Positions 45,103-49,789 of a stretch of 64,000 nt of DNA are shown in pieces. The first letter of the stretch is position 1; each line of letters begins with the position of its first letter. The notes beneath the pieces were generated by a model. The model made no database searches. It was not told the DNA's origin and worked only from the letters and a program-made list of their open reading frames with translations. A program made the translations under genes and the position numbers. The stretch spans positions 1 to 64,000 of the forward strand of contig NZ_SZQA01000006.1 of assembly GCF_005233835.1 (NCBI RefSeq), in the 5' to 3' direction. Source of the stretch: Herbidospora galbida. Lineage in GTDB: Bacteria > Actinomycetota > Actinomycetes > Streptosporangiales > Streptosporangiaceae.

Positions 45103-46818
45103 TCACGAGTTCTGCGGCTCGGCCACCAGGGCGTGTCCGGGCCGGTAGAGGACGGCCGACGGCTCGTTGACGGTGATGCCGGCGACCGTGCCGGGCCGCC
45201 AGAAGTTCACGGCGGTGAGGCCGCCCGCGGTGACCGCCTGGTGGGCGGGGGTGTTGGCCACGACGGTGACGCGGGCCGCCCGGGTGGTGGCGAGATCGGC
45301 GTTGGGGAGCAGCGCGTAGAAGTAGCGGGCGTCGGTCGGGTCGGTGCCGTGGTCGAACCAGAGCGTGGTGTACTCGCCCTGGTCGACGCGGAGTGAGCCG
45401 TCGAAGACGTAGCCGCCGTGGCCCTCCAGGTGGGCCCAGCCCTTGCCGAGGGTCAGCTTCGCGCGGGTGCGGCGGTTGTCGACGATCGTCTCGACCGGCA
45501 CCCCGTCACGGCAGGTGATCCCGGCGCCCAGGCAGACAACCATGTCGTCGAGGAAGATCCACGACTTGCGGGCCTGCAGGGTGCTCCCGAGGCCGAAGAG
45601 GTGCTGACCAACGGCGGCGTGGACGCCGTCGGAGGCCCCGCCGACCCACCGCGCGGGCGGGCAGTTCTCGCCCCAGGCGCCGCCCGCGCCGTCGGGCAGG
45701 CGCTTGGTGGAGACCGTCGTGCCGGGCAGCCGGTAGGGGTCGACGGTGTGCCAGAAGTCGCCCGAGTAGTGGTCGCCGTGGCCCTCGCCCCACCAATAGA
45801 GCATTCCGGCCCCGGTGTGCCAGCCGCGCAGATTCTCGCCGTTGCCGTGCTCGTAGTGGGCGACCCGGTGGGAGGCCATGCTGAGCGCGGCCACCCAACT
45901 GTCGCGGCGGTGGACGGCGCGGGCGCTCGCCGGCATCAGCCGGTGGCCGGCGGGCGGCCTCTCGATCAGCTCGCGCCAGCGCGCCCGCCGCGCCGCCGGG
46001 GCCGACTCGCCGAGCAGGTCGAGCGCGTCGGTGAGGGCGCGGGCCCTTCTCCGGTCTCCGTACGGCCGGCGCGCGATCGCCCGCCCGCTGACCAGGTCCA
46101 TCATCCGGCCCTCGTGCAGAAAAGGCAGGAAGCCGTGTTCGACGGAGTCGAAGACGTTCCGGAGGGCCGGGTCGGTGATCTCCCACGGGGTGCCGCGCAG
46201 CGTCATGAGGATCGCGCCGATCCCGTGGAGCATCGAGGCCCCATAGGTGCCCTGGTAGGGGACGGTCGAGTGCTGGATGAACGAGCCGTCGCGATAGAGG
46301 CCGTCGCCGTCGGTGACGTACCGGAAGACCGGAGAGAGCGCCGCGGCGGCGCGGGAGATCTTTCGCGGGTCGCGCGACAGGATGCCGTTGAGCAGCGTGA
46401 CCAGGCACAGGTCGGTGCGGTTGGCGGCGGTGCTGGTGCCCCGGTAGAACTGCAGCCGCCACGGCCGGACGAAGTGGTCGACCGCCGCGATCAGGTCGTC
46501 GTCGCGGTGGCCGACGAGGATCGCGAGGTCGAGCAGCCGCTTGGGCGCCCCGATCTCCCAGTTCCACCAGTTCCCGGTCTTGACCGCCCCCGCGTGGTAG
46601 GCCTCGCGGACCAGGCGGCCGACCTCGTCGGCGATCTTTCGTTTCAGCGCCGGATCACCCGTCTGGCGGAACTCCCGGGCCGTCGCGTGCTCCGGCGACT
46701 GCGGCTCGCGCCGTGACGAGACGGCCACCCAGTTGCGCTCCAGCGTCGGCCAGGCGTCGTCTCGGCCCGCGGTCGCCGGCAGCAGGGCTCCGGCCAGGAA
46801 GGCACGCCGCGAGAGCAT
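45103..46818 (-). CDS. Exported polysaccharide lyase, PL8-like
   Basis: 571 residues. A Tat-like signal (MLSRRAFLAGALLPATA) is followed by the alpha-toroid of PL8 lyases (hyaluronate, chondroitin, xanthan lyases). NWWNWEIG and GSFIQHSTVPYQGTYG carry the usual substrate-binding and catalytic Asn/His/Tyr, and SGRAIARR the Arg. The beta-sandwich domain is present but the protein is shorter than many PL8 enzymes, which reach 700-800 residues. ATG 46818 is chosen; GTG 46827 is an alternative. Substrate unknown. Confidence 0.83.
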   Translation of the reverse strand: MLSRRAFLAGALLPATAGRDDAWPTLERNWVAVSSRREPQSPEHATAREFRQTGDPALKRKIADEVGRLVREAYHAGAVKTGNWWNWEIGAPKRLLDLAILVGHRDDDLIAAVDHFVRPWRLQFYRGTSTAANRTDLCLVTLLNGILSRDPRKISRAAAALSPVFRYVTDGDGLYRDGSFIQHSTVPYQGTYGASMLHGIGAILMTLRGTPWEITDPALRNVFDSVEHGFLPFLHEGRMMDLVSGRAIARRPYGDRRRARALTDALDLLGESAPAARRARWRELIERPPAGHRLMPASARAVHRRDSWVAALSMASHRVAHYEHGNGENLRGWHTGAGMLYWWGEGHGDHYSGDFWHTVDPYRLPGTTVSTKRLPDGAGGAWGENCPPARWVGGASDGVHAAVGQHLFGLGSTLQARKSWIFLDDMVVCLGAGITCRDGVPVETIVDNRRTRAKLTLGKGWAHLEGHGGYVFDGSLRVDQGEYTTLWFDHGTDPTDARYFYALLPNADLATTRAARVTVVANTPAHQAVTAGGLTAVNFWRPGTVAGITVNEPSAVLYRPGHALVAEPQNS

Positions 46819-46825
46819 GCGCTCC

Positions 46826-46836
46826 ACCCTAGGGTA
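46826..46836. promoter_or_regulatory. Overlapping divergent -10 boxes
   Basis: The perfect palindrome ACCCTAGGGT (46826-46835) contains TAGGGT (46830-46835), 6 nt before the hydrolase ATG, on the plus strand. On the minus strand TACCCT (46836-46831) faces the lyase gene. Only one of the two promoters could be occupied at a time. Confidence 0.45.
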
Positions 46837-47500: not shown

Positions 47501-48253
47501 GTGCGTTTAACCCCATTCGTCACCGTCCTCGCCTCGCTGCTGGTCGTGGGAGCGGCCCCCGCGAACGCCTACCCGATCGACGACCGCGCCCTCACCCAGA
47601 ACGCGCTCTACCGAACGGGCCGGCTCGCACCGGTCGACTGCCCGGAACCCCCGTTACGCGACGGCGACGCCAGCTCGGCCCGCCGCTACGCGACAGCGGT
47701 GACGACCTGCCTCAACGAGGCATGGGGTGCGCACTTCCGCGCGAACGGCCTGCCCTTCACCCCGGTCAAGATCAGCTTCCAGGCCAGGCCGAAGCCGTTC
47801 TGCGGCCGCAAGTGGGACGACGCCGCCGGCCGCTACTGCGACACCCAGCGGCGCTTCATGGTGCTGCTCGACCGCGACGCCCTGGTCGATGCGTCGAACC
47901 TCTACCTCTACCTCGTGATCGCCCACGAGTTCGGCCACCACCTGCAGAACCTGACGGGCATGGCCGACGCGTACCGTACCCACCCCTACCGCTCCAAAGC
48001 CGAGCTCTACCAGCAGATCCGCCGCAACGAGCTCCAGGCCGAATGCCTCGCGGGCGTCTTCTTCGGCGCGGTCTGGCCGACGCTCGGCCGCAGCGACGCC
48101 GACTGGCAGTATCTGCGCGAACTCGACGGCACCGGCCACAGCCGCACCCACGGCCGGGGTAAGAACGTGCTGGCCTGGCTCGACAGGGGCTTCGCGACCC
48201 GCAAGCCGGGGGCCTGCAACACCTGGACCGCCAAAACCGCCAAAGTCGCCTGA
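47501..48253 (+). CDS. Secreted neutral zinc metallopeptidase, copy 1
   Basis: 250 residues. A signal peptide (VRLTPFVTVLASLLVVGAAP...ANA) precedes a zincin domain with HEFGHH (His142, Glu143, His146) and a downstream ELQAECLAG that supplies the third ligand. It belongs to the putative neutral zinc metallopeptidase family (YpfJ-related). GTG 47501 lies 7 nt after TAGGAT, so the mRNA is probably leaderless. The next gene is a diverged tandem copy 13 nt downstream. Confidence 0.85.
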   Translation: MRLTPFVTVLASLLVVGAAPANAYPIDDRALTQNALYRTGRLAPVDCPEPPLRDGDASSARRYATAVTTCLNEAWGAHFRANGLPFTPVKISFQARPKPFCGRKWDDAAGRYCDTQRRFMVLLDRDALVDASNLYLYLVIAHEFGHHLQNLTGMADAYRTHPYRSKAELYQQIRRNELQAECLAGVFFGAVWPTLGRSDADWQYLRELDGTGHSRTHGRGKNVLAWLDRGFATRKPGACNTWTAKTAKVA

Positions 48254-48266
48254 CGAACTGGATGAG

Positions 48267-49013
48267 ATGCGCGCGCTCTTACTCTCCCTGCTCCTGGTCG
48301 GTGGCACCGCCTACCCCGTCGACGACCCCGTCCTGACCGGCAACCTGCTCTACCGGACCGGCCCGATGGCCGAGGTCGACTGCCCGGAGAAGCCCGTCGC
48401 CGTCGGGAACCGCGAGCTGACCAGGAAATACGTCCGGTCGCTCGTCGACTGCATGAACACCGCCTGGTCCGGCCTCATGGGCGGGATCGGGGTGCCGATG
48501 CCCCCGGCGACCGCCGGCTTCCTCAACCGGCCCGAGGTCCGGTGCGGGGTGACCTGGCGGCAGGGCATCCAGGGCCAGTACTGCCCCGCCGACCGCCGCT
48601 TCGACGTCCTGCTCGACCAGCGCCTGCTGGCCACGCCGCACGATCTCAGCACCTTCCTGCTGGCCGCCCACGAATACGGCCATCACGTCCAGCACATGAC
48701 GGGGATCCTGTGGGCCGAGGTCAACCTGCCGACCTCCGGCCAGGCCGAGGAACTGGAGCGCTCCCGGCGGATCGAGCTGCAGTCGGAGTGCCTGGCCGGG
48801 GTGTTCATGGGCAGCGCCTGGAAGTCGCTGAACCGGCCCGCCTCCGATCTGCGGGACCTGCGGCGCATGATGCTGGTCGACGACGACGGGGGCGGCATCA
48901 ACGGCAGCCACGGCTCGCCGCGCAACCGGGAGGCGTGGTTCACGCGCGGCTTCGAGTCGCGGGACGCCAAGTCGTGCAACACCTTCAGCGCGAACGAGCC
49001 GAGAGTCGGCTGA
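48267..49013 (+). CDS. Secreted neutral zinc metallopeptidase, copy 2
   Basis: 248 residues, paralogous to the preceding gene: both share YP[IV]DD at the mature start, NLLYRTGPM/NALYRTGRL, the HE[FY]GHH site (here His135, Glu136, His139) and the ELQSECLAGVF / ELQAECLAGVF block. The signal peptide is short (MRALLLSLLLVGGTA). It has an insertion around GQAEELERSRR. The two are probably cotranscribed. Divergence is high, so the duplication is not recent. Confidence 0.85.
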   Translation: MRALLLSLLLVGGTAYPVDDPVLTGNLLYRTGPMAEVDCPEKPVAVGNRELTRKYVRSLVDCMNTAWSGLMGGIGVPMPPATAGFLNRPEVRCGVTWRQGIQGQYCPADRRFDVLLDQRLLATPHDLSTFLLAAHEYGHHVQHMTGILWAEVNLPTSGQAEELERSRRIELQSECLAGVFMGSAWKSLNRPASDLRDLRRMMLVDDDGGGINGSHGSPRNREAWFTRGFESRDAKSCNTFSANEPRVG

Positions 49014-49335
49014 TCTGCCGCCCCTCACCGGCCGCTGAGCGCGCCGAGACGCATGCCCTCTTCGGGAAGCGACCGTCCTTTACCAACGCCGGCCGTCGGC
49101 ATGTCCGCAAGAGCACGACGTGCGGCAATTCCCGGCCGTTTTCCTGAGGGCGGGGCACTGGGTGCTCCAAACGGCGGTATGCCTGGTCGGCACTTCGAAT
49201 GCCCGCCCACACGCCCGCGCCTAGCGTGCGCCCCGCTTGGGCAAATCCCCGCCGCAGTGCCTGGACGCTGTTCCTCGGCGCTGCGAACGATGGAGGTGTG
49301 TCGCAAGCGTCAGGCGAACGAAGGAGGAGACGCAT
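49014..49335 (+). other. Intergenic region upstream of the lysine-rich protein gene
   Basis: 322 nt without a supportable gene. AAGGAGGAG at 49321-49329 is the ribosome binding site of the next gene. No clear -35/-10 pair or terminator for the metallopeptidase pair was found. Confidence 0.4.
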
Positions 49336-49719
49336 ATGGACGGTAAGAGAATCGCGCGGTGGAGTGCGGGAGTCCTCGGAGGGTCGGCCATTTTGCTCGC
49401 GCCGGTGTCGACGGCCACGGCCGCTCAGCACACGGCCGGCGTCTCGTCGCCCCCTGCCTCGACCGCGCAGAATGCGGCGAGCACCTCGGCGACGACGCCG
49501 ATGAGCCCGTCGACCACCAAGGATCCGCCCCACAACGGGCACGACAAGAAGAAGGACAAAAAGAAGGACAAGAAGAAGGGCAAGTGGAACAAGTACGACA
49601 AGAAGAAGGATAAGAAAAAGGATAAGAAGAAGAACAAGAACAAGAAGAAGGGCAAGTGGGATAAGTACGACAAGAAGAAGGACAAGAAGAAGGGCGACAC
49701 GTACATCAATATCGTGTGA
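49336..49719 (+). CDS. Secreted lysine/aspartate-repeat protein
   Basis: 127 residues. A signal peptide (MDGKRIARWSAGVLGGSAIL, cleaved near Ala30) leads to a Ser/Thr/Ala/Pro linker (31-65) and then a block of 50 residues (71-120) with 32 lysines and 8 aspartates. Two nearly identical 18-residue units, DKKKGKWNKYDKKKDKKK (78-95) and NKKKGKWDKYDKKKDKKK (102-119), are 24 residues apart. The repeat uses mostly AAG and AA-rich codons, so the DNA is locally much lower in GC than its surroundings. Strong ribosome binding site and a terminator frame it as a monocistronic gene. No known family; it may bind anionic wall polymers (inference). Confidence 0.8.
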   Translation: MDGKRIARWSAGVLGGSAILLAPVSTATAAQHTAGVSSPPASTAQNAASTSATTPMSPSTTKDPPHNGHDKKKDKKKDKKKGKWNKYDKKKDKKKDKKKNKNKKKGKWDKYDKKKDKKKGDTYINIV

Positions 49720-49733
49720 GCGAGAGCTGCGAA

Positions 49734-49768
49734 GAATGCCGCACATGACGTGATCATGTGCGGCATTC
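49734..49768 (+). terminator. Terminator of the lysine-rich protein gene
   Basis: GAATGCCGCACATGA (49734-49748) and its exact complement (49754-49768) form a perfect 15-bp stem with a 5-nt loop, 15 nt after the stop. Confidence 0.85.
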
Positions 49769-49789
49769 CGCTGGAGCCGCCGCAGATCG

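Follow-up and report, generated by a model that had tools for sequence, protein, structure and literature searches.

A predicted exported lysine-rich protein of Herbidospora belongs to a leader family with a conserved promoter motif and dissimilar low-complexity tails

A short reading frame of Herbidospora galbida that is packed with lysine codons raises the question of whether it is a genuine gene and, if so, what its product could do. The frame lies in a 64,000-nucleotide stretch (contig NZ_SZQA01000006.1, positions 1 to 64,000; hereafter the window), and a preliminary description had taken it for a secreted poly-lysine/aspartate protein of no known family. Searches with the translated sequence (the K protein, Table 1) returned no Pfam or NCBIfam match above cut-off and no PDB entry at E ≤0.1, so that it still has no known family. 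A block of 32 lysines in 50 residues had been reported and is present, beginning at residue 70, and the reported charge near +24 is the net charge of the full protein (+22 from residue 31 on). The two 18-residue units of the same description agree in their first 14 residues, with one N/D difference (GKWNKYDKKKDKKK from residue 82 and GKWDKYDKKKDKKK from residue 106), but their last four residues are unlike; in the DNA, the repeat is mostly a 12-bp tandem unit, GACAAGAAGAAG. A KR n-region, a hydrophobic core and an A-x-A site in the leader, all judged by eye, support the proposed export signal and make export of the K protein likely.

The mature protein is very hydrophilic (mean Kyte-Doolittle -2.1) and is probably disordered. 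Because AlphaFold gave a poor model of the single sequence (overall pLDDT 63, pTM 0.30) in which the tail is helical, with pLDDT ∼90 over residues 91-110, this disorder is an assumption. The tail is AT-rich, as had been noted, with 41% GC compared with ∼70% around it, and this low value is caused by its amino acid content, since its GC3 is 88% and 32 of its 34 Lys codons are AAG. The GC3 value also excludes foreign DNA as the source of the low GC of the tail.

Table 1. Features of the K locus, with positions in the window
Feature	Position	Strand	Basis
Promoter motif CTGGACG-N19-ACGATGG	49261..49293	+	Exact match to motif that is conserved 5' of relatives from 4 other genera
Ribosome-binding site AAGGAGGAG	49322..49330	+	Read directly, just 5' of the K ATG
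Lys/Asp-repeat protein gene (K), 127 aa	49336..49719, stop included	+	ORF; orthologs, apparent purifying selection
Leader, residues 1-30, signal-peptide-like	49336..49425	+	Family-wide alignment; A-x-A cleavage site likely near residue 30, judged by eye
Ala/Ser/Thr/Pro linker with DPPH motif, residues 31-69	49426..49542	+	
Lys/Asp tail, residues 70-127: two GKW(N/D)KYDKKKDKKK units, C-terminal TYINIV	49543..49716	+	
Terminator-like hairpin GAATGCCGCACATGA...TCATGTGCGGCATTC	49733..49769	+	Fold z -4.64, just 3' of the K stop

The gene had been credited with its own promoter region and a strong terminator, and both are found, as a predicted promoter with a conserved motif and as a terminator-like hairpin (Table 1). 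The promoter pairs a -35-like hexamer, TGGACG, with a -10-like hexamer, AACGAT, across an 18-nt spacer, and it is the sole exact match to the motif in the 8.3-Mb genome of the window (assembly, 8.31 Mb). Upstream of relatives, the ribosome site is conserved as (A)GGAGGAGACGC. In two other Herbidospora genomes (G004 and G005), the K genes are likewise followed by hairpins similar to the one described here, as are some genes of a second genus, g2. A longer ORF with a TTG start at 49237 is unlikely because it would enclose the conserved promoter. The antisense hydrophobic ORFs over the K gene were rejected as genes and are mirror images of its Lys codons; the sole antisense frame that is open across the whole K gene in the window's genome (G000) and G004 is broken by a stop in G005. 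One antisense frame (49425-49766, minus strand), rich in Phe and Leu, outscored the K gene in a GC3-based gene call and is a trap for gene finders.

K-type genes are found in three of the seven Herbidospora genomes, namely G000 and two of its six congeners, G004 and G005, the orthologs of which are 83% and 72% identical and keep the C terminus TY(I/V)NIV. The preliminary description was to be given up if the gene had neither expression nor homologs in relatives; because homologs exist, this combination does not hold. It had also suggested that the repeat number may vary, which it does, from two units in the window's K protein to three (G)KW units in G004 and G005. For the three ortholog pairs, dN/dS is 0.18, 0.46, and 0.21 over the leader plus linker and 0.16, 0.22, and 0.25 over the tail, the latter from ∼21 synonymous sites in an uncertain alignment; as judged by these values, all of which are <0.5, the K gene is under purifying selection. 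The gene is absent from four of the seven genomes and is therefore dispensable.

These comparisons bear on a reading in which slippage enlarged the repeats downstream of an expressed leader and the tails serve no function. Such drift would account for the 12-bp tandem repeat, for the varying number of units and for the genomes that lack the gene, but it is at odds with the low dN/dS of the tail (within the limits just given), with the conserved C terminus and with the retention of the promoter motif across genera, and we consider it improbable.

The K gene lies between a leader-bearing zinc-peptidase-like gene and a tRNA-Phe/Asp/Glu cluster, and a phosphoesterase gene lies behind; in G005, the phosphoesterase gene is ∼17 kb from the K gene. 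The same flanks adjoin directly, without a K gene, in G002 and G006, and in G001 and G003 (L074 and L075) the site holds ∼4.8 kb with a frame of ∼1250 codons plus a smaller one. The zinc-peptidase-like gene at 48267-49013 (plus strand) matches PF04228, and the window holds two adjoining genes of this kind with leaders (47525-49013, plus strand) that are 44% identical to each other; the 13 genomes searched contain 3 to 11 relatives of the two genes each. Positions 45103-46827 (minus strand) encode a polysaccharide lyase family 8 enzyme (Pfam).

The K-type leader also begins H/N-rich and D/Y/W-rich proteins, the genes for which adjoin in all seven Herbidospora genomes, as well as an H/K/N-rich (HK) protein in G001, G003, and G006. 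In our own reading of the sequence, the HK genes (L055, L056, and L057) are directly downstream of two apparent ribonucleotide reductase subunit genes. K and HK are mutually exclusive (K in three genomes, HK in three others, and neither in G002), which in seven genomes is only a lead. In the K-bearing genomes, the D/Y protein is near-equal and opposite in charge to the K protein (net mature charges of -21, -19, and -20 versus +22, +18, and +19) and has a different promoter. None of the 14 H and D/Y genes of Herbidospora has the promoter motif within three mismatches, and of the three HK genes two have it with two mismatches and the third with six.

Profile searches of 341 and 345 genomes, largely one set, together with the promoter scan described below, led to a leader family in the Streptosporangiaceae with 48 or more members. 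The 48 members tabulated come from 19 genomes, with the genera other than Herbidospora designated g2, g23, g29, and g46, and the table leaves out three Cys-rich relatives (G008, G011, and G293). Matches above an E value of ∼1e-4, which were mostly ordinary signal peptides, were mostly dropped; 12 weak matches were read, and six of them (G057 and G201-G205:C54, R/H type) plus G205:C57 were kept. The class-level matches outside the family were rejected, as they resemble ordinary signal peptides; the loci read were three, L165, L170, and, from within the family, L164. The leader consists of M-x-G-K-R plus a hydrophobic core, and the K protein fits the family in its leader, in its low-complexity tail and in the upstream CTRGACG-N19-ACGATGG. 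The tails are wholly different and include K/D, H/N, D/Y, (GH)n, R/H, R/E/F, E/S/Q, Gly, and other types. Each of the five genomes of genus g2 has one low-complexity member (four near-neutral (GH)n and one R/E/H), G072 has two Gly-rich members, and G057 and the five genomes of genus g46 have R/H-rich members, plus one R/E/F member found by profile search. The K and (GH)n genes have promoter and leader in common, but positional orthology of the two is unsupported, as those GH neighborhoods that were read lack the K neighbors; as far as draft assemblies tell, the two would be homologous cassettes at different places.

This range of tails is relevant to metal handling, by which His- and Asp-rich tails would capture metal ions on the outside of the cell, an ability that the K type would have lost or changed. 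The H/N, H/K, (GH)n, R/H, and D/Y tails are what such a function would call for, and ZrgA, a zinc-uptake family, is weakly matched by the H paralog (13.7 bits, below the cut-off of 27.4; E 0.064). The K tail, however, has no His and few ligands besides Asp among its many Lys residues, and E/S/Q, R/E/F, and Gly tails also exist, so we regard metal handling as very unlikely.

The promoter motif was derived from 16 aligned upstream regions (K, RE, GH, Gly, and RH types) and consists of CTRGACG, 19 free bases and ACGATGG, located 37 to 61 bases 5' of the start. It is exact in 12 of the 16 regions, has one mismatch in three and two mismatches in one; when 33 upstream regions were shuffled in 200 rounds, 0.08% of the shuffled regions came within two mismatches of the motif and none came closer. 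The motif is common to most members except the H and D/Y types, and its TRGACG and xACGAT elements, set 18 bases apart, would be compatible with a factor of the sigma-70 family.

A scan of 341 genomes for the exact motif gave 43 matches, compared with 15 for the reversed pattern. Downstream frames were read, and 28 of the 43 precede a small exported-type protein with a family-like leader. The tails of 26 of these are biased or of low complexity, although weakly so for one in G205, and those of the other two are Cys-rich (G008 and G293). The scan added E/S/Q-rich, R/E/F-repeat, TRPVTRMET-type repeat, and Q-rich tails. Sixteen of the 28 genes were absent from the protein-profile results, and the DNA and protein evidence is therefore partly independent. 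The other 15 matches, equal in number to the reversed control, look like chance: 14 are in genomes without family members, and one is in G010 (C6), with no leader-family gene behind it. The G166 match precedes an exported protein outside the leader family. Among 394 genomes of the class, there were 11 motif matches outside the family, none of them before a leader-family gene, and 15 matches to the reversed pattern in all.

Net mature charges range from -17 to -21 for the D/Y type and from -10 to -20 for the ES type, through about 0 for GH, to +3 to +11 for RH and +10 to +13 for RF. Of the 14 genomes with two or more members, 10 have both strongly cationic and anionic ones. In G057 and in all five g46 genomes, one promoter motif is shared by cationic members and an anionic member of the ES type, as it is by positive and negative members in G072. 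Of the roles proposed earlier (wall-polymer binding, adhesion, or antimicrobial action), the first and the last, if due to the lysines, are a poor account of the whole family because some members are neutral or acidic, although the K protein by itself could bind wall polymers or act as an antimicrobial. As a cationic antimicrobial or adhesin, its tail would harm the membranes of competitors or stick cells to surfaces, for which the net charge of +22 and the Trp and Tyr residues of the mature protein are suitable. This role would be hard to square with its extreme hydrophilicity, with the neutral or anionic relatives that have the same promoter motif and with the scanned neighbors of the K gene, among which no immunity or processing gene was recognized, and we give it little credence.

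From these results, we conclude that K is a real gene under selection, with a conserved promoter and a leader shared with proteins whose tails are of extreme and differing composition, insofar as sequence comparison can tell. By the same measure, promoter and leader are conserved, as is charge in the K orthologs, and the tail sequence is free. This suggests that a previously undescribed leader family with swapped simple tails provides charged polymers that are used on the outside of the cell. A literature search, with subscription journals and preprints outside its coverage, found nothing on this leader-promoter family. We favor, at somewhat less than even odds (a probability of roughly 0.45), a set of polyelectrolytes, linked through their promoter, that would be exported, are probably disordered and would act at the wall or surface through multivalent charge contacts, with the K protein as a polycation. 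The K protein would be exported by Sec, and its linker would keep the tail at a distance from the envelope. The tail would work via bulk charge and many weak contacts, given by its Lys/Asp pattern and spaced Trp and Tyr residues, and under this proposal composition would therefore outweigh exact sequence. It might bind polyanions, for example polymers of the teichoic type, extracellular DNA, or anionic members of the family, and might form or charge a hydrated wall or surface layer that could protect the cell in whichever stress or developmental state turns the promoter on. In a bolder version, which we consider doubtful, a dedicated regulon would supply a matched polycation/polyanion kit that condenses extracellularly into a coacervate-like coat, with promoter, leader, and net charge selected and whole tails replaced. 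The lone members of the g2 genomes, four of them near-neutral (GH)n proteins, do not fit a cation-anion pair.

The best rival, ahead of killing, of metal binding as a function common to the family and of drift alone, is an exported, disordered, basic stress protein that, under acid or similar stress, counters aggregation or adjusts the charge outside the membrane. Its precedent is Escherichia coli Asr, described as an intrinsically disordered chaperone that reaches a very high level in severe acid stress (PMC10746267). Asr is, like the K protein, small, exported, basic, repetitive, and probably disordered, and tails that are loose in sequence and not in composition would fit such a role. The H paralog has a weak match to the NCBIfam Asr model (NF033636; E 0.05, 14.4 bits), but this is far below the cut-off of 50 and the K protein has none. 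There is thus no significant sequence match to Asr; Asr is from another phylum with another envelope, there is no such periplasm in a Gram-positive envelope, and the K relatives include acidic and (GH)n tails. We know of no set of swapped tails for Asr, and overall this reading seems unlikely to us.

Other known systems also resemble the polyelectrolyte set in part. Hydrophilins and LEA-like proteins are extremely hydrophilic, of low complexity and likely disordered, and hydrophilins are defined by >6% glycine. The mature K protein shares their high hydrophilicity, but it has 5.2% Gly (5/97) and the K type is probably exported. The His-rich protein BRANT (NF047414) is, like the H paralog, a small protein in which a leader is followed by a His-rich tail, but the H paralog reaches 16.5 bits where the cut-off is 44, and the K protein has no match. 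In myticalins and polymorphic toxins, the leader or N terminus is constant and the mature part changes; here, in contrast, the tails are low-complexity polyelectrolytes and not toxin domains, and, in bacteria, a fixed promoter motif accompanies the leader. If the polyelectrolyte reading is true, bacteria would offer a natural system, marked by a promoter, where evolution swaps whole low-complexity sequences behind a constant leader, and it would become testable whether selection sees net charge and composition, and not sequence, in exported low-complexity proteins. The promoter motif itself is a DNA signature for such genes, including the 16 that the protein profile missed.

Two minor observations concern other branches of the family. 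A hairpin is predicted in the 5' UTR, between promoter and ribosome site, of the g46, G057, and G072 members and is absent from the K genes; its conservation is plausible, as the sequence varies by subgroup and the pairing seems kept. The Cys-rich relatives (G008:C121, G011:C69, and G293:C47; L142, L144, and L158) are small exported Cys-containing proteins with the family leader and G(F/Y)xxG(F/Y) motifs. Their promoter, which lies farther away (144-217 nt), is exact in G008 and G293 and has one mismatch in G011, and the profile also found proteins similar to them at L164 and L097.
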